From the NCBI GenBank assembly GCA_012735535.1, contig JAAYHC010000068.1, forward strand, positions 1 through 62,281: 62,281 nucleotides of DNA. The letters are read 5' to 3'. Both the position numbers and the translations under genes were made by a program. The notes below the pieces were generated by a model. The model ran no database searches, had not been told where the DNA came from, and saw only the letters and a list, made by a program, of their open reading frames with translations. Each line of letters begins with the position of its first letter. Position 1 is the first letter of the stretch. Origin of the DNA: Bacillota bacterium (GTDB taxonomy: Bacteria; Bacillota; UBA5301). Shown piece after piece: positions 29,880-38,757 of the stretch.

Positions 29880-31211
29880 TTACCCCTCGTTCAGCGAAAA
29901 CTCGCAGTTTAATAGATCTTCATAAGACTGCCGGCGGACAACAAGCTTACTCCGACCGTCGCGGCAGAAAACTACGGCCGGACGAAGCAAGCGATTATAA
30001 TTGGAGGCCATAGAATAAGTATAAGCTCCGGTTGAGAAGACTGCAAGCACATCGTCCGGTTGCGGATCTGCTAAGGCAATATCCCAAATCAGCATATCTC
30101 CGGATTCACAGCATTTCCCGGCCACCGAGACCACCTGATCAGGTACAGAATTGGCCTTCGAAGCATTGACCGCACTATATTTCGCTTGGTACAAGGCCAC
30201 ACGCGGATTATCCGTCATGCCGCCATCAACCGCGACATAGGTACGAATGCCGGGAATGGTCTTACAAGCCCCAATCGTATATAAAGTCAAGCCGGCTTCA
30301 CCGACTATCGAACGACCCGGTTCCAACAATAAGCGGGGTTTAGGCAACGAGTACTTTTGACAACCGGTGGAGACCGTTGCTATGATCTGCGCGGCTAACG
30401 ATTCTATCGGTTGTGGATCGTCTGACTCTACATACCTGACGCCGAGCCCTCCGCCCAAATTAAGTTCTTTCCAGACAAAGCCCGTCTGTGATCTCACCTC
30501 GGCAGCGAACTGCAACATTACGTCAATAGCGGCTCGGTAAGAGTCCAAACTAAAGATCTGGGAACCAATGTGGCAATGAAAGCCCAACAATTTAAGGTTC
30601 TGATCGATAAGGACTCGGCGCACGGCCTCGATAGTTGAATTGTCGAGCAGCGAAAAACCAAACTTGCTGTCAAGCTTGGCCGTCTTAATGTATTCGTGAG
30701 TATGCGCCTCTACACCAGGATTGATGCGCAGAAGCACGGTCTGAACAACTTGTTTGGCCTTGGCGATGGCGGAAACCCGCTCCAACTCGAGTAGATTATC
30801 GACGATAATGCCGCGGATGCCTGCATCAATGGCCTCTGCTAACTCCACCGGGCTTTTGTTATTGCCGTTAAAGTAAATCTTGTCCGGAGACACCCCGGCT
30901 TTAAGAGCGGTATAGAGCTCTCCCCCGCTCATCACATCCAGGCCTAGCCCTTCTTGCTCGATCAACTCGGCCATGGCCAGCGGCAGAAAAGCTTTGGAGG
31001 CATATAAAATCTCGTAACCGGGTTCGTAGGAGGTAAAAGCTTGTCTATACCGCTGGCAACGTCGACGCAGAGCCGCCTCATCATAGACATATAGCGGAGT
31101 TCCAAACTCCTTAGCCAACGCCACCAGGTTGCATCCGGCCAGCTCCAGTTGGCCACTTGCCGATACACTGAGGTCAAGATCAAATTCTGGAATCCACTTT
31201 GGCCGACTCAT
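29880..31211 (-). CDS. lysA: Diaminopimelate decarboxylase
   Basis: A fold-type III PLP enzyme making lysine from meso-diaminopimelate. The PLP lysine is in YASKAF; HCHIGSQ, the glycine-rich LNLGGGLGVRY, LLEPGRSIVGEAG and the second-subunit cysteine motif KCCESGDML are all present. At 443 residues it is a normal length. It leads the operon lysA-M50-HD-scpA-scpB-DUF2953-ytfJ and has its own promoter. Confidence 0.96.
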   Translation of the reverse strand: MSRPKWIPEFDLDLSVSASGQLELAGCNLVALAKEFGTPLYVYDEAALRRRCQRYRQAFTSYEPGYEILYASKAFLPLAMAELIEQEGLGLDVMSGGELYTALKAGVSPDKIYFNGNNKSPVELAEAIDAGIRGIIVDNLLELERVSAIAKAKQVVQTVLLRINPGVEAHTHEYIKTAKLDSKFGFSLLDNSTIEAVRRVLIDQNLKLLGFHCHIGSQIFSLDSYRAAIDVMLQFAAEVRSQTGFVWKELNLGGGLGVRYVESDDPQPIESLAAQIIATVSTGCQKYSLPKPRLLLEPGRSIVGEAGLTLYTIGACKTIPGIRTYVAVDGGMTDNPRVALYQAKYSAVNASKANSVPDQVVSVAGKCCESGDMLIWDIALADPQPDDVLAVFSTGAYTYSMASNYNRLLRPAVVFCRDGRSKLVVRRQSYEDLLNCEFSLNEG

Positions 31212-31493: not shown

Positions 31494-32709
31494 GCAAGGG
31501 GCTACGAAAAATCACTATACTTTTCCTGTTATCACCGTTATTTGCGCCGTACCCTTTCTCATGGTCTTGGGCAACTCGATGCTGATCCCGGTCTTACCGA
31601 AAATGAAGAGCGTGATGGGTCTCAGCCAGTTTTGTTGTGGGTTGGTCATCACCGCATTCTCCATTCCGGCCGGTCTGGCCTTCATCATCGCCGGTCCGCT
31701 CTCCGACCGTTTTGGGCGGAAAACGATCATCGCCCCAAGCCTCTTGCTTTATGGAGTTGGCGGTTTACTGGCCGGCATCAGTGCTTTGCTATTTAAGAAC
31801 CCCTATTATCCGATTTTGGGCAGTCGGTTTATCCAAGGTGCAGCAGCCGCCGGAACATACCCGATTGCCATGGCCTTGATTGGAGACGTGTACCAGGGCG
31901 AGGAACGCAGTAAGGTCCTCGGCCTCGCCGAAGCAGCCAATGGGTTGGGTAAAGTGGTGAGTCCGATTCTGGGCTCGGCGGCCGCCTTAATCAGTTGGTA
32001 TTTCCCTTTCTTCGTTTATGGCGTTTTGGCGTTGCCCACAGCCATCGCCCTCTGGTTCTTAATTGCGGATCCCGGAAAGACCAGTAAAGATACGAGCATT
32101 CGCAAATACTTCACAGAGGTAAAAGATATCCTCGTGGAAAAAGGCAAGGAATTGCTAATCGTCTTTCTCTCCGGAGCAATTATCCTCTTTTTACTGTTCG
32201 GCTTACTTTTTTATTACTCCGACACCCTTGAAGCGGTGTACAAAATAGTCGGGTTCAAGAAAGGTCTGGTCTTGGCCATTCCGGTGCTGGTTATGTCCAT
32301 CACCAATTACATCACCGGCCGGTTGGTGAAAGAAAAGCTCAATCTCATGAAAACTCTGACTTGGGTCGGCTTGACCATTTCGGGACTCGGGCTGCTGTCG
32401 ATGGGTTTGATCAAAGCACACTGGTACCTCTTTTTGGCCGTCTCGATCGTGGGCTTAGGTAACGGATTGGCCTTGCCGTCAATCAATTATCTGGTCACCA
32501 GTAGTACTACCGATAGGAAAAGAGGCATCATTACCTCTGTCTATGGCTCGGTGCGTTTCTTTGGCGTTGCGCTCGGTCCGCCTTTATTTGGGTTGGGCTT
32601 GGATTGGTCAAAGGCCGGCTTATTCATCGTTGCCGGAATCATCGGCTTGTTGACCGCGGTTTTGGCCTTTATCTTTGTCCAGCCTGAACAATTGGTAGCT
32701 AACGAGTAG
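31474..32709 (+). CDS. MFS exporter
   Basis: A 411-residue major facilitator with 12 predicted membrane segments. The loop 2-3 signature is GPLSDRFGRKT, and motif C-like GSRFIQGAAAAGTYPIAMALIGDVY is present in helices 4-5, typical of drug:H+ antiporters. The start ATG has GGAG eight bases upstream, supplied by the repeat unit. It ends 11 bases inside the convergent YqhV gene. Substrate unknown. It stands alone on the plus strand among minus-strand genes and may have been inserted there. Confidence 0.88.
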   Translation: MSKNEIKQGATKNHYTFPVITVICAVPFLMVLGNSMLIPVLPKMKSVMGLSQFCCGLVITAFSIPAGLAFIIAGPLSDRFGRKTIIAPSLLLYGVGGLLAGISALLFKNPYYPILGSRFIQGAAAAGTYPIAMALIGDVYQGEERSKVLGLAEAANGLGKVVSPILGSAAALISWYFPFFVYGVLALPTAIALWFLIADPGKTSKDTSIRKYFTEVKDILVEKGKELLIVFLSGAIILFLLFGLLFYYSDTLEAVYKIVGFKKGLVLAIPVLVMSITNYITGRLVKEKLNLMKTLTWVGLTISGLGLLSMGLIKAHWYLFLAVSIVGLGNGLALPSINYLVTSSTTDRKRGIITSVYGSVRFFGVALGPPLFGLGLDWSKAGLFIVAGIIGLLTAVLAFIFVQPEQLVANE

Positions 32710-32965
32710 CCAGAAGGATTAAGAGAACACCCAGAATGATGTAGACGGTCTTAAAAGGATTAATGCGGCCGACTAAGCCGATGATCCCCAAAGAAGCCAC
32801 GGTTAACATCATAACCGGTCCGACCAAACCGAGAAGGGCGTTGATTTGCAGTGCTCTGTTGATTTTGCCGAAACGTAACATCAACAAAGCCGCACAGATC
32901 TCAAGGCTACCAGCGAGAAAACGTATTGCGGCCATTCCGCGGACCGTTGCGGTTTCTTCAAGCAT
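32699..32965 (-). CDS. YqhV-like DUF2619 membrane protein
   Basis: About 88 residues with three hydrophobic segments. The string RFLAGSLEICAALLMLRFG followed by INALLGLVGP fits Bacillus YqhV (DUF2619), often near sporulation loci. The ATG at 32963-32965 is used with AGGTGG upstream; an in-frame GTG overlaps the SD. Last gene of the SpoVAE-N-like operon. Confidence 0.8.
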   Translation of the reverse strand: MLEETATVRGMAAIRFLAGSLEICAALLMLRFGKINRALQINALLGLVGPVMMLTVASLGIIGLVGRINPFKTVYIILGVLLILLATR

Positions 32966-32980
32966 TGAACAAATCACCAC

Positions 32981-33436
32981 CTAGAAAAAGCTATTGACTA
33001 GGTATAACAACACCGCGGTTATGCCTGCCGCCGCCAGCGGACCAACGGGGATCCCCTGGAAGAGAGTTACGCCGAGGATTGTACCGACAAGAATCCCCAC
33101 TATTATTTGTGGCGAATCTTGCAGCAGACACACTCCTCGTTGATTCATGAACGAGGCCACCACCCCGCCGGCCACCGCGATCATTCCCTGCACCGACCAC
33201 AATGACGCCCAAATCTCGCGCAACCGAATTTCGCCGGTACTAAACGGCAAGAGGACCGCAATAACCAGTAGGATTAGGCCGCACTCGAGTGAGCGCCGCT
33301 CTAATATTGCCAACGCGAGATCAAGTCGGAGCACCTTGAAAATCAACAGCAGGGCGGCTCCGGCTGAAATCAGTTTATTGTTGGAGAGAATCCCTAGAGC
33401 GGTCAGGAAGAGAAGAACAATGCTGTGTTCATCCAT
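32981..33436 (-). CDS. DUF441 membrane protein
   Basis: A 151-residue protein with four or five hydrophobic helices and the motifs GILSNNKLISAGAALLL, LLPFSTGEI and GVTLFQGIPVGPLAAAGI, typical of DUF441 (YtwI-like). No function is known. ATG 33434-33436 has GGAGG eight bases upstream. The gene lies 24 bases after the activase-like pair. Confidence 0.85.
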   Translation of the reverse strand: MDEHSIVLLFLTALGILSNNKLISAGAALLLIFKVLRLDLALAILERRSLECGLILLVIAVLLPFSTGEIRLREIWASLWSVQGMIAVAGGVVASFMNQRGVCLLQDSPQIIVGILVGTILGVTLFQGIPVGPLAAAGITAVLLYLVNSFF

Positions 33437-33460
33437 CGCGGATACCTCCACAGCATCTTA

Positions 33461-34558
33461 TTAGCTGCCGGCCAGAGATATGTCGACCGGAGGCAATAAA
33501 TCCACAAAAGCTTCCAGACGAGTTTGCAGACCGGCTTCCGCTGTCTGTTCATCAACGTAAATTGTGAGGATTGGTTTGCCGAAATCACGACTAACATTTG
33601 GTAGTACGCTATGTGCAACAATCTCCGGCATACAAGTTAAGGGAGCGATCTGGATCACCCCGGAAACTAATCCGCTCTGACAGTACCGGAGTGCATGGGC
33701 GACACTCTCCAAACCATGGCCCCCGACGAAGTATTGCAAATATGGCTTGGCCCACCGTTCCAATTCGCTGCGGAGAGCGGCTTTTTTCTTGGCGTTCAAA
33801 GTTAAATGTTCAGCAATCCAATGACTGAGCCGTAAATCTCTAATGACTTCAACACCCAAATTCCCCAGTTTCTTTAGTAGATCAAGGTTTGCACTTGGTT
33901 CGAGCACAGTATAGATTTCTCCGACCACCCCGATCCGCAAAGGCGAACGGCGACCTTGCCGCAGCTCACGTAGGTGGCGACTATACTCTGAGGCCAAAGT
34001 CTCGACCTCTGCGAGCAAATCGATAGCTGCCAACTGAGTGAGAAAAGCTTGATAGATCTGATCTACGATGGTTGGGTTGGCGATTGGCCTGGTCTTCTCC
34101 ATCTCCATTTCGACTAGATCAATAGCCTTAGCTTTGGCCAGACCCAACAACCAACCGCGGCGAAACCGACGAACTGGAAAACTCCCCAGGAGCTCGCGAA
34201 TCCGGTGTAAAAATTGCAACCAACCATTTTGTGGTGCTTCCAGGACGAGCATCTGGAAGTTGCACCCTAAATCAGTCAGGATTTCACGTTGAACTTGGGC
34301 GTAGTAACCAAATCTGCACGGACCGCATCCACCGGCCATAATGATCGTTTCGGCTCCGAGTTCCAGAGCTTCGAGAAAATTGCCTAAGGTGATTTTAAAG
34401 GGCAAACAGGCAAATTCTGGCGAGTTGGCTGCTCCAAGCGCTAACGTCCGCTTACTGGTGGGGGGTGGTTCGATCACCTCCAAACCCAGTTCATGCAAAA
34501 CAGAATTGAGCACGATATTTAAGGTTCCCATATGCGGATAGGTAACCTTTTGGGACAT
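33461..34558 (-). CDS. Acyl-CoA dehydratase activase-related protein (DUF2229)
   Basis: A 365-residue protein related to the 2-hydroxyacyl-CoA dehydratase / benzoyl-CoA reductase superfamily, usually labelled 'CoA protein activase'. Conserved cysteines are in EFACLPFK, GGCGPCRFGYYAQ, CQSGL and PLTCMPEIV, likely Fe-S ligands. No ASKHA ATPase domain is present. It forms a pair with the next gene upstream, to which it is related. Reaction unknown. Confidence 0.75.
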   Translation of the reverse strand: MSQKVTYPHMGTLNIVLNSVLHELGLEVIEPPPTSKRTLALGAANSPEFACLPFKITLGNFLEALELGAETIIMAGGCGPCRFGYYAQVQREILTDLGCNFQMLVLEAPQNGWLQFLHRIRELLGSFPVRRFRRGWLLGLAKAKAIDLVEMEMEKTRPIANPTIVDQIYQAFLTQLAAIDLLAEVETLASEYSRHLRELRQGRRSPLRIGVVGEIYTVLEPSANLDLLKKLGNLGVEVIRDLRLSHWIAEHLTLNAKKKAALRSELERWAKPYLQYFVGGHGLESVAHALRYCQSGLVSGVIQIAPLTCMPEIVAHSVLPNVSRDFGKPILTIYVDEQTAEAGLQTRLEAFVDLLPPVDISLAGS

Positions 34559-34560
34559 TT

Positions 34561-35556
34561 TTAGCCCTCCACAGCTCCCTTGATAGCATTAAATTCAATC
34601 ATGTCACAAAAAGCTTCCAGTCTTGTCCGAATTCCGGCTTCTCCGGAATGCTCGTCGATGGTTACCAGGAGATACGGTAGTTGACCGGATCGACGGATTA
34701 ACCGTTCGATCAGTTCGCCGGTAATCGAATCTGTACCACAGCCAAAAGTCTCCAGATGGATAATCCCGTCGACCAGATGGTATTTTGACCACAGTAAAGC
34801 CGCACCAACCATGCGCCGTCCGTACGACCAAAATAATTCTTTGGGTAAAGATCGCGCGTATTGGGTCAACAGTTGCACCCGATAATGGACGGGAGTTAAA
34901 ATCCTGTAGCCGTGGGCGCGCAGAAAAGTCAGCAGATTTAGATTGATCACCTCATCAAAGAGCGTGTATGGATGGCCGATGAGACCGATGGTTCGTGCCC
35001 CGTCGGCCTTAGCTGGTGCTACCTTCGGCTTAGATAGAAGTTCCGACGGCATTAAGCCCTGGCATAGTTGGGATCGGTAGGTCCGTTGCGCCTTGATTCC
35101 CGCCCATAATGCGCGTCCGACCTGCACCGCTGATCCTACCCCCACGGACTGGGCGGTGGTCATAGCTGCAGCCCAGAGATTGTGCAGGTAGCGCCGGGGA
35201 TCACGTAGATCTATTACCGGATCCAGCAGATTCCGGTACCCAAGAGAACGCAGCAAATCCGGTAAGCCCATAAACTTCGGACAAATGTAAGTCCGTGGCT
35301 CTACACTGACGAGGCGTGGCAGAAAGATTAGGTCGCAGGTATCAACCAATTCCAGAAAATGACCGTAGAAAACCTTTACCGGTAGGCAGGTTTCATCAAC
35401 TGCTGCCAGCACGCCGGAATCTAGTGTGGCCTTGGTTGTTGGGGAGGAAACGACCGTCTTAACGCCTAAATGGGTGAAAAATGCATGCCATAAAGGGAAG
35501 TAATCGTAATACAAAAGGGCGCGGGGTACCCCAACCGTAAGCATATTCTCCTTCAT
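34561..35556 (-). CDS. Acyl-CoA dehydratase activase-related protein (DUF2229)
   Basis: A 331-residue homologue of the following gene, with GVPRALLYYDYFPLW at the N-terminus and cysteines in DETCLPVK, YICPKFMG and ETFGCGTDS. The ATG overlaps the SpoVAE-N-like stop (ATGA), so both are coupled. Pairs of this kind are found in anaerobic Firmicutes, but their substrate is not known. The location in a sporulation operon is notable. Confidence 0.75.
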   Translation of the reverse strand: MKENMLTVGVPRALLYYDYFPLWHAFFTHLGVKTVVSSPTTKATLDSGVLAAVDETCLPVKVFYGHFLELVDTCDLIFLPRLVSVEPRTYICPKFMGLPDLLRSLGYRNLLDPVIDLRDPRRYLHNLWAAAMTTAQSVGVGSAVQVGRALWAGIKAQRTYRSQLCQGLMPSELLSKPKVAPAKADGARTIGLIGHPYTLFDEVINLNLLTFLRAHGYRILTPVHYRVQLLTQYARSLPKELFWSYGRRMVGAALLWSKYHLVDGIIHLETFGCGTDSITGELIERLIRRSGQLPYLLVTIDEHSGEAGIRTRLEAFCDMIEFNAIKGAVEG

Positions 35557-36131
35557 CCTCGTTTGTCAGTGTGGTTTAGAATAAACTGAACCGCCTTGGT
35601 GGTAATTGGAGCACCTCTGGCATAATCATCGTGATGATCCATTTTGCCAATATCGCCAATCCCAACGATCAGTGGAATCTTTGCCGTGTTTAAAGTATCT
35701 ACCGTATCCCCGTAAATGATCGGCTCTTGGTCGGGCTTTTCATGGCCGCTCTTGTCGACAGCTGCCCGAACTATCTTGCCATCCCGGGTAACCGAATAAT
35801 CGACCGTAATACCGTCAACCCCATCGGTTGCCGAGGCTACGGCTAAGGCCCCAATGATGTCCAACTCCGGGCTTTGCAACAGCTGCGCCAGGACGCGCTC
35901 GCCCCGTCCTTGCTGCTGATCGCCGTCATCATCGACCATCACCAAGACGGGATCATACGGAGTTTGCTTGACCAACTCGACTATTTCGTCGGCTGTAAGA
36001 AGTGTTGGATTTCCCGAACTGGCGGAAATGCAACGGCCGCCGACATTCTTAGCGGCTACTTCTACCGCTTTTTTCGCTTGACAATCACCATCGGTGACGA
36101 TAATCACGCGCTTTCGTTTTTGTGACAGCAA
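35553..36131 (-). CDS. spoVAEA: SpoVAE N-terminal-type protein (SpoVAEA)
   Basis: A 192-residue soluble protein. RVIIVTDGDCQAKKAVEVAA and SGNPT, followed by VLVMVDDDGD and VGIGDIGKMDHHDD, match the SpoVAEA family (Toprim-like fold). In Bacillus it belongs to the spoVA operon for dipicolinic acid movement, but it is not essential there. Start TTG with GGAG eight bases upstream. It is separated from spoVAC-D-E here by a plus-strand gene, and heads its own operon. Confidence 0.88.
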   Translation of the reverse strand: MLSQKRKRVIIVTDGDCQAKKAVEVAAKNVGGRCISASSGNPTLLTADEIVELVKQTPYDPVLVMVDDDGDQQQGRGERVLAQLLQSPELDIIGALAVASATDGVDGITVDYSVTRDGKIVRAAVDKSGHEKPDQEPIIYGDTVDTLNTAKIPLIVGIGDIGKMDHHDDYARGAPITTKAVQFILNHTDKRG

Positions 36132-36163
36132 ACCATGGGCTCCTCTCGCTACAGCTACCTGCC

Positions 36164-36194
36164 TAGTATGAGCAAAATAACTTGCAGCTATGTA
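36164..36194 (-). promoter_or_regulatory. Sigma-G/F-like forespore promoter
   Basis: CATACTA (36164-36170) is an exact match to the -10 CATNNTA of sigma-G/F; 18 bases upstream TACATA (36189-36194) differs by one base from the -35 TGHATR. It sits 33 bases before the spoVAEA start. Confidence 0.6.
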
Positions 36195-36258
36195 ACCGTA
36201 TGAAACGTGTCAGAAGAGAGAAACTATCTTTAAACTACATAACTAGGAGGTGAACCTA

Positions 36259-36591
36259 ATGGAATGGTTAGGTCATATACTGCGCTTCATCGCTTCAGCA
36301 ATTGTGCTCATGTTTCTGGGGTTTTTGCTGCCAGGTTTTAGCGCGTTAACCTTCGGACAGGCTTTGCTTGCTGCTGCGGTGATCACTGCCCTCGGATACC
36401 TGATCCAGGCGATGCTAGGTAAAAATGTCTCACCGTATGGTCGTGGTATTGTGGGTTTTCTCGTTTCCGCTGTTGTTATCTACGCAGCTCAGTTCCTTGT
36501 GCCGGGTCTGCGGGTAACAATTCTCGGAGCACTGCTAGCGGCGTTTGTCGTCGGGATCGTCGATCTGTTTGTACCCACGACTGTTAGGTAG
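36259..36591 (+). CDS. Phage-holin-family-type membrane protein
   Basis: A 110-residue protein with four hydrophobic helices (about 6-26, 30-50, 60-80 and 84-104). It fits the widespread 'phage holin family' (superfamily IV) of chromosomal membrane proteins; no phage genes are nearby. The ATG 36259-36261 has AGGAGGTG eight bases upstream; an in-frame GTG nine bases earlier overlaps the SD. It sits between the two spoVA parts on the opposite strand. Confidence 0.8.
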   Translation: MEWLGHILRFIASAIVLMFLGFLLPGFSALTFGQALLAAAVITALGYLIQAMLGKNVSPYGRGIVGFLVSAVVIYAAQFLVPGLRVTILGALLAAFVVGIVDLFVPTTVR

Positions 36592-36645: not shown

Positions 36646-36996
36646 TTAGCCTTTCGGACGGCAAATGATCCCAAAAATGAAACCAAAAAAGATCGCCGCG
36701 GCAATCGCTCCACCGGCCAGATTAAATACGCCCGACCACACTCCCCCAATTCCTTTACTTAAAAGCGATTCATACACTCCTTGGGTCAAAACGTAACCGA
36801 AATTAGAGACCGGAATTGCCGCGCCGGCACCGGCCAGTTCGACCAACGGCTCATAAAGACCCACAGCGGTCAGAGCGCTACCGGTGACGACAAGAATCAC
36901 CATGACATGGCCCATGGTGAGTTTGGTTAAATCAAAAATCAGTTGTCCAATGGTTACGATAATACCTCCGACAACAAAGGCCAGTAAATAGTCGAT
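36646..36996 (-). CDS. spoVAE: Stage V sporulation protein AE (SpoVAEB type)
   Basis: About 116 residues with three or four membrane helices. FVVGGIIVTIGQLIFDLTKL, GLYEPLVELAGAGAAIPVSNFG and the end FGFIFGIICRPKG are the family signatures; it is a paralogue of SpoVAC. Part of the inner-membrane channel for dipicolinic acid. There is no ATG, GTG or TTG near the expected N-terminus: GAGGTG sits eight bases before an ATC (36994-36996), where homologues start. The in-frame GTG at 37035 lacks an SD and lies in spoVAD. Confidence 0.88.
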   Translation of the reverse strand: MDYLLAFVVGGIIVTIGQLIFDLTKLTMGHVMVILVVTGSALTAVGLYEPLVELAGAGAAIPVSNFGYVLTQGVYESLLSKGIGGVWSGVFNLAGGAIAAAIFFGFIFGIICRPKG

Positions 36997-36998
36997 TT

Positions 36999-38009
36999 TT
37001 AAATCACCTCTATAGCAACAGCATGGCAAATACACGGTATATTTTCATTTTGCAGGCTGGTTAACGGACTTAATAAAGCACCGGTTCCGGCCAACAGAAC
37101 TTTGTTGAGCTTCCCGGCTTGGATCAGCTTAAAAAAATGACCGGCAAATCCGACTGCTAAAGCGGCGCAGCCACTGCCGCCCGCATGCACATCTTCATCA
37201 GGATGAAAAATGGAGGCTCCGCAGTCAAGATAGTTGTCGACAAAACCGAAACCGGCCTCTTCCATCAATTCCGCCAGAATTGCCGAGCCCACTTTACCCA
37301 AGTCACCGGTCACAATAAGATCATAATCAGCCGGTTGTTTCGCCAAATCTTTGAAATGAGCAAGCAAGGTATCGGCAGCTGCCGGAGCCATGGCCGAGCC
37401 CATGTCGTTCGGATCTTTACATCCCATGTCAACAACCCGCCCAACCGTAGCACAGGTGATCCGCGGGTTCGTTGCCGAATCATCGATGAGAAAGCTGCCA
37501 CATCCGGTCACGGTCCACTGGGCTGTCGGCGGTCTTTGCGTGCCGAATTCGATCGGAAATCTGAACTGGCGCTCTGCGGCCTTATTATGGCTCGAAGCTG
37601 CGGCAATTACTCGGCTGCCATAACGTCCGTCGATTAACATGGCCCCGAGTATTAATGCTTCAGCAATTGTCGAGCAGGCGCCGAAGAGTCCGAAAAACGG
37701 GATCGGAAAGGTGGCTGCGGCGAAATTGGAAGAGATGATCTGATTTAATAAGTCGCCTGCTAATAAAAAACTTATCTCATCGGGTTGAAGCTTTGCTTTT
37801 TGAATCAGATTATTGACCGCTTCGACAACTAACTTTCGCTCCGCCTTTTCCCAGGTCTGTTCACCGTATACTTCATCGGGTAAAACGGTGTCATAATCAG
37901 GGCCCCATGGGCCTCGCCCTTCTTTCGGACCCACGATACTAAAAGTATGTGAAATGCTGGGCAGGGAGCGAAAGACGACCGTTTGCTTGCCGATGTGATT
38001 AGTTTGCAT
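36999..38009 (-). CDS. spoVAD: Stage V sporulation protein AD
   Basis: The dipicolinic-acid-binding SpoVA protein, thiolase-fold. FGLFGACSTIAEALILGA, AAASSHNKAAERQFRFP and HAGGSGCAALAVGFAG are the conserved blocks. About 336 residues from the ATG at 38007-38009 (SD AAGGGTGAG). Overlaps nothing upstream but is 10 bases after spoVAC, and directly precedes spoVAE. Confidence 0.95.
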   Translation of the reverse strand: MQTNHIGKQTVVFRSLPSISHTFSIVGPKEGRGPWGPDYDTVLPDEVYGEQTWEKAERKLVVEAVNNLIQKAKLQPDEISFLLAGDLLNQIISSNFAAATFPIPFFGLFGACSTIAEALILGAMLIDGRYGSRVIAAASSHNKAAERQFRFPIEFGTQRPPTAQWTVTGCGSFLIDDSATNPRITCATVGRVVDMGCKDPNDMGSAMAPAAADTLLAHFKDLAKQPADYDLIVTGDLGKVGSAILAELMEEAGFGFVDNYLDCGASIFHPDEDVHAGGSGCAALAVGFAGHFFKLIQAGKLNKVLLAGTGALLSPLTSLQNENIPCICHAVAIEVI

Positions 38010-38019
38010 CTTCTCACCC

Positions 38020-38472
38020 TTAGTGGACCAAAATCCATTTGACCACTCCGGCAATTATAGCGCTGACTACGCCGTAGGTAATCACCGGACCGGCAATCTT
38101 GTACATTTGAGCCGCCATCCCGAGAACGTAACCTTCGGAGCGAAAATCCATCGCTGCCGAGACGATCGTGTTGGCAAATCCGGTGATTGGCACGGCTGAG
38201 CCGGCCCCACCAATCTTGGCCAGCTTATCATACAATCCGAGAGCTGTGAGCAGGGCTCCGAGAAAAACCATGGTAATTGCAGTAAAAGCACCTGCTTCGC
38301 TTGGCGACAACCCTCTACTTAAAAAAAGATTGTTGATCGCCTGGGCGATGACGCAAATGAGGCCTCCCACGAGGAAGGCATTACAGCTGTTACGGAAGAT
38401 CGGCGGTTTGGGAATATGTTTTTGGGCTATTCTTTGGTAATTCTGTTGTGCTTTGGTGCGCTGAGCCATCAT
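38020..38472 (-). CDS. spoVAC: Stage V sporulation protein AC
   Basis: A forespore membrane protein of the DPA channel, about 150 residues with four helices. FLVGGLICVIAQAINNLFL and GLYDKLAKIGGAGSAVPITGFANT are typical. The ATG at 38470-38472 follows a GGATGGTGAG SD; the next codon is also ATG. First gene of spoVAC-spoVAD-spoVAE. Its upstream region has an inverted repeat, but no good sigma-G promoter (closest CATAGTG). Confidence 0.95.
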   Translation of the reverse strand: MMAQRTKAQQNYQRIAQKHIPKPPIFRNSCNAFLVGGLICVIAQAINNLFLSRGLSPSEAGAFTAITMVFLGALLTALGLYDKLAKIGGAGSAVPITGFANTIVSAAMDFRSEGYVLGMAAQMYKIAGPVITYGVVSAIIAGVVKWILVH

Positions 38473-38498
38473 TAGCTCACCATCCTGAGAGTAAACGA

Positions 38499-38551
38499 GC
38501 ACTATGTTAGTGCCCGTTGAAGTACGCTTGACGCTGGGAACTTAGGTTCCC
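38499..38551. repeat. Two short inverted repeats between dodecin gene and spoVAC
   Basis: GCACTA-TGT-TAGTGC (38499-38513) is a perfect palindrome upstream of spoVAC. GGGAAC-TTAG-GTTCCC (38536-38551) is a perfect hairpin that contains the dodecin stop codon. Neither is followed by T, so simple terminators are unlikely. Confidence 0.6.
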
Positions 38552-38757
38552 TCGACCGTAAAGGCGATATGGACATCGCATTTGTAATCGGTAACCCGAC
38601 CATCATCCACACTGCAGGTTAGGTTCATTACTTCCACGCCACTGATGTTACGGATGGTCTTAGAAGCTTCAGCTACCGCGTTTTGAATCGCATCTTCCCA
38701 ACTATGCGGTGATTCTGCAACGAGTTCGATCACCTTAACGACAGCCAATCGATTCAC
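38542..38757 (-). CDS. Dodecin family protein
   Basis: A 71-residue protein: KVIELVAESPHSWEDAIQNA and VTDYKCDVHIAFTVEGT match the dodecin fold, which forms dodecamers binding flavin or CoA. It has the usual length. SD GAGGTGA before the ATG. Located between spoVS and spoVAC; a spore role is possible but not shown. Confidence 0.92.
   Translation of the reverse strand: MNRLAVVKVIELVAESPHSWEDAIQNAVAEASKTIRNISGVEVMNLTCSVDDGRVTDYKCDVHIAFTVEGT

Follow-up and report, generated by a model that had tools for sequence, protein, structure and literature searches.

What is a pair of cysteine-rich proteins of the DUF2229 family doing in the operon of the dipicolinate (DPA) channel? The question is raised by a stretch of 62,281 nucleotides from a Bacillota bacterium (GTDB lineage UBA5301; assembly GCA_012735535.1, contig JAAYHC010000068.1), analysed at its full length and here referred to as the window, in which spoVAEA is followed on the minus strand by the genes of two such proteins, CdA (DUF2229-A) and CdB (DUF2229-B). 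The reading we favour, with a probability of roughly 0.7, is that they form a forespore ATP-driven iron-sulphur (Fe-S) reductase or dehydratase, encoded by anaerobic endospore formers within their spoVA operon. CdA and CdB would together make up a heterodimeric enzyme component, a small member of the superfamily of 2-hydroxyacyl-CoA dehydratase (HAD, in the structural comparisons below the 2-hydroxyisocaproyl-CoA dehydratase), class I benzoyl-CoA reductase (BCR) and DCCP, with one Fe-S cluster on three cysteines in each subunit. An ATP-hydrolysing activase of the BcrAD/BadFG type (Act), commonly encoded next door and in the window's genome once, on another contig, would charge the pair with low-potential electrons, by analogy with the superfamily as set out in PMC11971306. 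The cdA-cdB genes would be an ancestral part of the operon, transcribed in the forespore with the DPA-channel genes, and the complex would perform an ATP-driven reduction or a radical dehydration, either while the forespore develops or when the spore germinates.

The genes in question belong to a group of five, which the window places as follows.

35553..36131, minus strand: spoVAEA, with a TTG start (PF14097, 8e-74; NF052647, 214 bits against a cut-off of 200)
34561..35556, minus strand: CdA, 331 aa (PF09989, 5e-49, residues 7-222; weak PF06050 (HGD-D) match at the C-terminus)
33461..34558, minus strand: CdB, 365 aa (PF09989, 37 bits, partial; weak HGD-D (PF06050) match)
32981..33451, minus strand: DUF441 membrane protein of the YtwI type (PF04284, 5e-41)
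32699..32980, minus strand: DUF2619/YqhV membrane protein (PF10942, 3e-26)

Successive gaps of -4, 2, 9 and 0 bp bear out a preliminary description, drawn from the DNA sequence, which had assigned five closely packed genes to these same families, and the 4-bp overlap of spoVAEA with the first DUF2229 gene that it read from an ATGA lies at 35553-35556.

The AlphaFold2 models of CdA and CdB (pLDDT 94.0 and 91.3) match DCCP, BzdNO/MbdON and HAD over 275-312 residues, that is, over their full length. For CdA, ten structures of this superfamily score Z 13.7-16.4, among them DCCP (16.4), BzdNO chain B (15.9) and HAD (15.5), with the next fold at 9.9; for CdB the ten lie at Z 12.8-16.6 (HAD 16.6, DCCP 16.5, BzdNO chain B 15.4), with the next fold at 9.3. 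A Foldseek search with the CdA model returned this superfamily in all of its first 19 rows. Sequence searches of the Protein Data Bank (PDB) gave for CdA a single match, DCCP (7e-6, C-terminal 70 residues), and for CdB none at E <= 0.01. The best matches are to DCCP and, in HAD and BzdNO, to the shorter of the chains; by its length, the BzdNO chain concerned (8s02_B) is more likely BzdN than BzdO. That the best-matched BzdNO chain is probably not the catalytic one takes a little from our confidence. From the models, both proteins are predicted to be enzyme-component subunits of the HAD/class I BCR/DCCP superfamily. The Pfam name of their domain, 'CoA enzyme activase uncharacterised domain', would instead make CdA and CdB activases (ATPases) themselves. 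This can hardly be right, as neither protein gives a match to the PF01869 ATPase domain at E <= 0.01, the models match enzyme-component subunits and a separate activase exists; the idea was rejected on the fold and the missing PF01869. The 'activase-like' label given to the pair by the preliminary description falls with it, the fold and the three-cysteine pattern being those of an enzyme component and the real activase being another gene.

The 'many cysteines' noted at first sight turn out to be six in each protein, three of which are invariant among relatives. C57, C92 and C273 of CdA are kept in 179/179 rows (166 distinct sequences) and C51, C81 and C309 of CdB in 181/181 (168 distinct sequences), displaced copies included in both cases, and the same residues recur in 9/9 rows of each protein from extra loci. 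Beyond these three columns per subunit, no column holds a cysteine in more than half of the CdA or CdB rows. According to PMC11971306, Cys95, Cys128 and Cys380 of BzdO hold its single [4Fe-4S] cluster, HadB shows the same three-cysteine [4Fe-4S] coordination, and BzdN carries a double cubane with six cysteine ligands. The spacing of the invariant cysteines in CdA and CdB resembles that of the BzdO triad, the comparison being one of spacing and not a residue-by-residue overlay. With three invariant cysteines in each protein, the number found in BzdO and HadB, CdA and CdB are probably subunits of one cluster each.

The setting of the pair was surveyed in 299 genomes of the phylum and 14 control genomes. 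SpoVAEA (PF14097) was found in 79 of the 299, and all 79 neighbourhoods were fetched: CdA and CdB lie within the same stretch in 62, 2 of the other 17 run off the contig, and CdB is absent from 5 of the 79 genomes at E <= 1e-40, the limit on profile A1 by which CdB was called. A further 40 CdB loci were taken from the matches listed, 35 from genomes lacking SpoVAEA and 5 from SpoVAEA genomes with a displaced pair; in 30 of these the fetched stretch includes a spoVA gene, and in another two the pair stands behind sigF and dodecin. Going upstream from CdA on its own strand, the first recognised gene is a spoVA gene, at no more than 1 kb, in 90 of the 102 fetched loci, and CdA and CdB are spaced within 50 bp in 101. 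Among the best 80 named loci listed, spoVAD, spoVAEA or spoVAF is present up to 8 kb on each side in 69, and the RefSeq (NZ_) records among them all have spoVA genes and Act (16/16). Their carriers include Moorella, Natroniella, Orenia, Heliorestis, Desulfofundulus and Syntrophomonas, which are anaerobes. The gene order of the pair with the spoVA genes is kept across genomes. Such an order would also be found by hitch-hiking, if CdA-CdB-Act were a vegetative anaerobic enzyme whose site between spoVA and lysA is a relic of old synteny and which plays no part in spores. We consider this unlikely, although relatives occur in non-spore contexts and the other neighbour lysA is a housekeeping gene: the gap between spoVAEA and CdA is short (median 9 bp in 26 loci), and in the window it is the overlap of 4 bp.

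In typical relatives, CdB is followed by a protein of about 325 aa with the motif GIDVGSVSTN. In 78/102 loci no other recognised gene comes between CdB and this activase, and in 73/102 the two are at most 50 bp apart. The window's own genome encodes it on contig C60 (L125:9745-10734) as a protein of 329 aa, which matches PF01869 (9e-52) and TIGR00241 and, in the PDB, MbdQ (9e-38), HgdC (2e-37) and the 2-hydroxyisocaproyl-CoA dehydratase activator 4eht (6e-33). It scores 519.8 against the Act profile, which may have been built with this very sequence among its members, most members lying at about 480-563 and partial copies lower. It is the single PF01869 match above the cut-off in this genome, a second one (20.3 bits) falling below; the genome, 98.1% complete, gave neither an HGD-D match besides CdA nor a third PF09989 protein. 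Several lineages seem to have lost the activase from beside CdB to another site, as in the window's genome with its single relocated copy. C133 and C172 of Act align with the two cluster cysteines of MbdQ, and further cysteines are conserved at C290, C293 and C297 (138/138 rows), C316 (137) and C198 (134). A C-terminal CxxCxxxC...C motif of Act lies past the region matched by solved activators. This four-cysteine motif might bind another metal ion or Fe-S cluster. That CdA, CdB and Act work as one functional unit is supported by fused proteins, which join an ATPase to two modules of the DUF2229/HGD-D type: in the 10/10 examined, which the fetched stretch cuts to about 1,220 aa, the ATPase module or modules are followed by a CdA-like module and then by one matched by both profiles.

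With SpoIVA as the spore marker, the 299 genomes divide into 204 with both proteins, 10 with CdB only, 50 with SpoIVA only and 35 with neither (Fisher 7e-14, in a test that ignores kinship), or CdB in 204/254 genomes with SpoIVA and 10/45 without. Three of the 10 (G074, G118 and G295) carry SpoVAD and are likely spore formers in which SpoIVA was missed or is absent from the bin. Within one class of 50 genomes, a restriction meant to lessen the effect of kinship, CdB scores above about 470 bits, a threshold picked after the scores were seen, in 23/26 genomes with SpoVAD and 0/24 others (Fisher 2e-11), and 20 of these 23 high-scoring copies share a contig with SpoVAD, at a distance of no more than 6 kb. 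Their absence from all 24 genomes without SpoVAD is a further point against old synteny as the sole cause. In the same class, any CdB at E <= 1e-40 is found in 26/26 genomes with SpoVAD and 16/24 others. In a quick tree built from 110 rows of CdB, one branch (SH-aLRT 96) is made up of all 91 spoVA-linked rows and 12 others, and leaves out the six genomes, described below, whose CdA, CdB and activase lie together outside spoVA loci. PF09989 itself occurs in 274/299 genomes of the phylum; DUF2229 as such is not spore-specific, and the spoVA-type form largely is. In B. subtilis, one of the control genomes, SpoVAEA is present and PF09989 was not found. The preliminary description would have taken it as a refutation if DUF2229 pairs were equally common in non-sporeformers, which is half true of the domain (given its spread and six trios outside spoVA) and not true of the spoVA-type form. 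Its link of the pair to the developing spore has kept the tie to sporulation, which gene order and co-occurrence carry well beyond the window, and has lost the identity it gave to the proteins.

As the pair sits in the DPA-channel operon, and as class I BCRs act on aromatic rings, the complex might also be thought to replace or assist dipicolinate synthase in anaerobes. This is very doubtful. A DpaA-like match is present in the genome of the window itself (3.7e-85), though its 285 bits fall short of the curated cut-off of 320, and DpaA (E <= 1e-20) is present in 171/204 SpoIVA genomes with CdB and 45/50 without (Fisher p 0.38). Replacement of the synthase was rejected, there being no anticorrelation of CdB and DpaA; an assisting role is not touched by that count.

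Upstream of spoVAEA lies a candidate promoter.

36164..36193, minus strand: sigma-F/G-like promoter (-35 ACATA at 36193-36189, 18-bp spacer, -10 CATACTA at 36170-36164)

The exact CATACTA reported earlier is thus present upstream of the five-gene operon, and ACATA-N18-CATACTA ends 32 bp ahead of the spoVAEA start. CATAMTA by itself is not enriched in the window (10 seen against 8.2 expected by chance), and CATACTA alone was rejected as promoter evidence, its frequency there not being above chance. The whole site agrees with GYATR-N17-19-CATAMTA at 11/12 positions, which was equalled in 5/2000 random 120-bp stretches of the window, and the footprint shows TACATA and ATACTA unchanged in the two further members of the family that were sampled, which belong to two other genera. 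Across loci, the strict pattern (GYATR-N17-19-CATAMTA at most 120 bp upstream, of which the window's site meets a relaxed form only) precedes 7/58 lead cdA genes (p 7e-5), 3/30 lead spoVAEA (p 0.010) and 6/104 lead spoVAC (p 0.007), against 8/646 other lead genes and 0/106 internal cdA. That such promoters are enriched before leader-bearing cdA and absent before internal ones also argues against a merely vegetative enzyme.

Several observations weigh against the forespore enzyme. Three-dimensional comparison shows fold and not function, and in HAD and BzdNO the longer chains are matched at lower Z (12.8-13.9). CdB at E <= 1e-40 is missing from 50/254 SpoIVA genomes, so the pair is not needed for spores as such. 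Six genomes (G023, G025, G078, G180, G221 and G283) carry CdA, CdB and activase together outside recognised spoVA loci, in G180 with one gene between activase and CdB, and are without clear SpoIVA or SpoVAD matches; G025 has only a match below threshold. The tree places the CdB of G234, a genome with neither SpoIVA nor SpoVAD, among those of the spoVA branch; here CdA, CdB and Act lie on a 4.75-kb contig, too short to judge the context, and a DpaA match is present. In 29/102 loci (L209, L211 and L213 among them) the 50 bp next to CdB hold no activase, in part because the contig ends. The lead cdA genes with the strict pattern number just 7 of 58, and several of them are near relatives. Finally, two family relatives have TATACTA as the -10, one base off the window's CATACTA, and because both carry it the site in the window may be a sigma-A promoter. 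The forespore-type promoter first proposed is supported by the footprinted near-consensus site and by the enrichment of sigma-F/G-like sites upstream of cdA and spoVAEA and weakened by these relatives.

The remaining features of the neighbourhood are the following.

38542..38757, minus strand: dodecin gene (PF07311, 1.5e-27), directly upstream of spoVAC
38020-38502, minus strand: spoVAC, in the upstream part of the spoVA cluster (36646..38502; PF03862 and PF07451 matches)
36999-38054, minus strand: spoVAD, same part of the cluster
36646-37035, minus strand: spoVAEb, same part of the cluster
36250-36591, plus strand: holin-like gene (PF04020), in opposite orientation between spoVAEb and spoVAEA
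29880..31211, minus strand: lysA-like gene, a diaminopimelate decarboxylase by sequence alone, no family search having been made

Because the holin-like gene parts spoVAEb from spoVAEA, the latter seems to need its own promoter in the window. A PF04020 gene is close to spoVA genes in 7/7 loci with a match, two of which look like one contig. Dodecins are a family of flavin-binding proteins; the gene stands directly before spoVAC in 57/84 fetched loci with spoVAC-spoVAD and may be the first gene of the spoVA operon here, a position that fits a redox theme and proves nothing. The lysA-like gene is the usual downstream landmark of the locus, and in the window a gene of the MFS lies between it and the operon. 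The end of the YqhV gene overlaps that of this convergent MFS transporter gene by 11 bp (32699-32709). The DUF441-YqhV tail was rejected as part of a conserved module, with 3 matches among 202 loci scanned, all three in members of the window's family.

The best-known sporulation programmes are those of Bacillus and a few Clostridium species. A search of the open-licence full-text literature, judged largely on titles and the opening lines of abstracts, turned up no paper that appears to connect these proteins with sporulation, and in PMC3533761, a survey of sporulation genes, the words 'dehydratase' and 'activase' are absent from the main text. CdA-CdB-Act would be a known kind of enzyme in a setting that we have not seen described, and its place in a channel operon suggests that spore formation or revival includes a redox step not recognised so far. 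We give even odds to the wider proposal that anaerobic endospore formers keep a dedicated forespore redox module (dodecin, CdA-CdB and Act) in the DPA-channel operon, in which a very low-potential ATP-driven Fe-S radical enzyme would catalyse a spore-specific reaction that B. subtilis does without. If true, this would point to redox chemistry at the spore stage for which B. subtilis is no model, place an uncharacterised radical-enzyme family in a physiological setting and offer a gene pair directly testable in non-pathogenic anaerobes such as Moorella.

How does the system compare with known ones? The (R)-2-hydroxyisocaproyl-CoA dehydratase HadBC is alike in its homologous same-fold subunits (best-chain Z 15.5 and 16.6), in the three-cysteine [4Fe-4S] site reported for HadB (PMC11971306) and in an activator of Act's family (4eht, 6e-33). 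It is unlike in that identity in structural alignment is 10-15%, the CdA-CdB pair sits in a spoVA operon, and CdA is shorter (331 aa); a CoA ester is the substrate of HadBC and only a possible one of CdA-CdB, and Act carries its extra four-cysteine motif at the C-terminus, outside the part that aligns with solved activators. The class I BCRs BzdNO/BzdPQ and MbdON/PQ share the fold (BzdNO chain B, Z 15.9/15.4; longer chain, 13.9/12.8), the three-cysteine pattern of BzdO and a related ATPase (MbdQ, 9e-38). In contrast, BzdN holds an [8Fe-9S] cluster on six cysteines where CdA and CdB have three invariant ones each, and the CdA-CdB system has one activase gene rather than two.

DCCP/DCCP-R provides the closest fold for CdA (Z 16.4, with HAD and BzdNO within 1), although DCCP is homodimeric with a double cubane. 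Membership of CdA and CdB in DCCP was rejected: its six conserved cysteines per subunit are not kept (three each), and NF040772 gives CdA 18 bits against a cut-off of 350. Finally, there are the fused acyl-CoA dehydratase activase-like proteins (about 1,430 aa, PF09989), which to our knowledge have no known function. Unlike CdA, CdB and Act they are single chains, and open frames of that size are also found in SpoIVA-less genomes, yet within the one chain they carry comparable modules.

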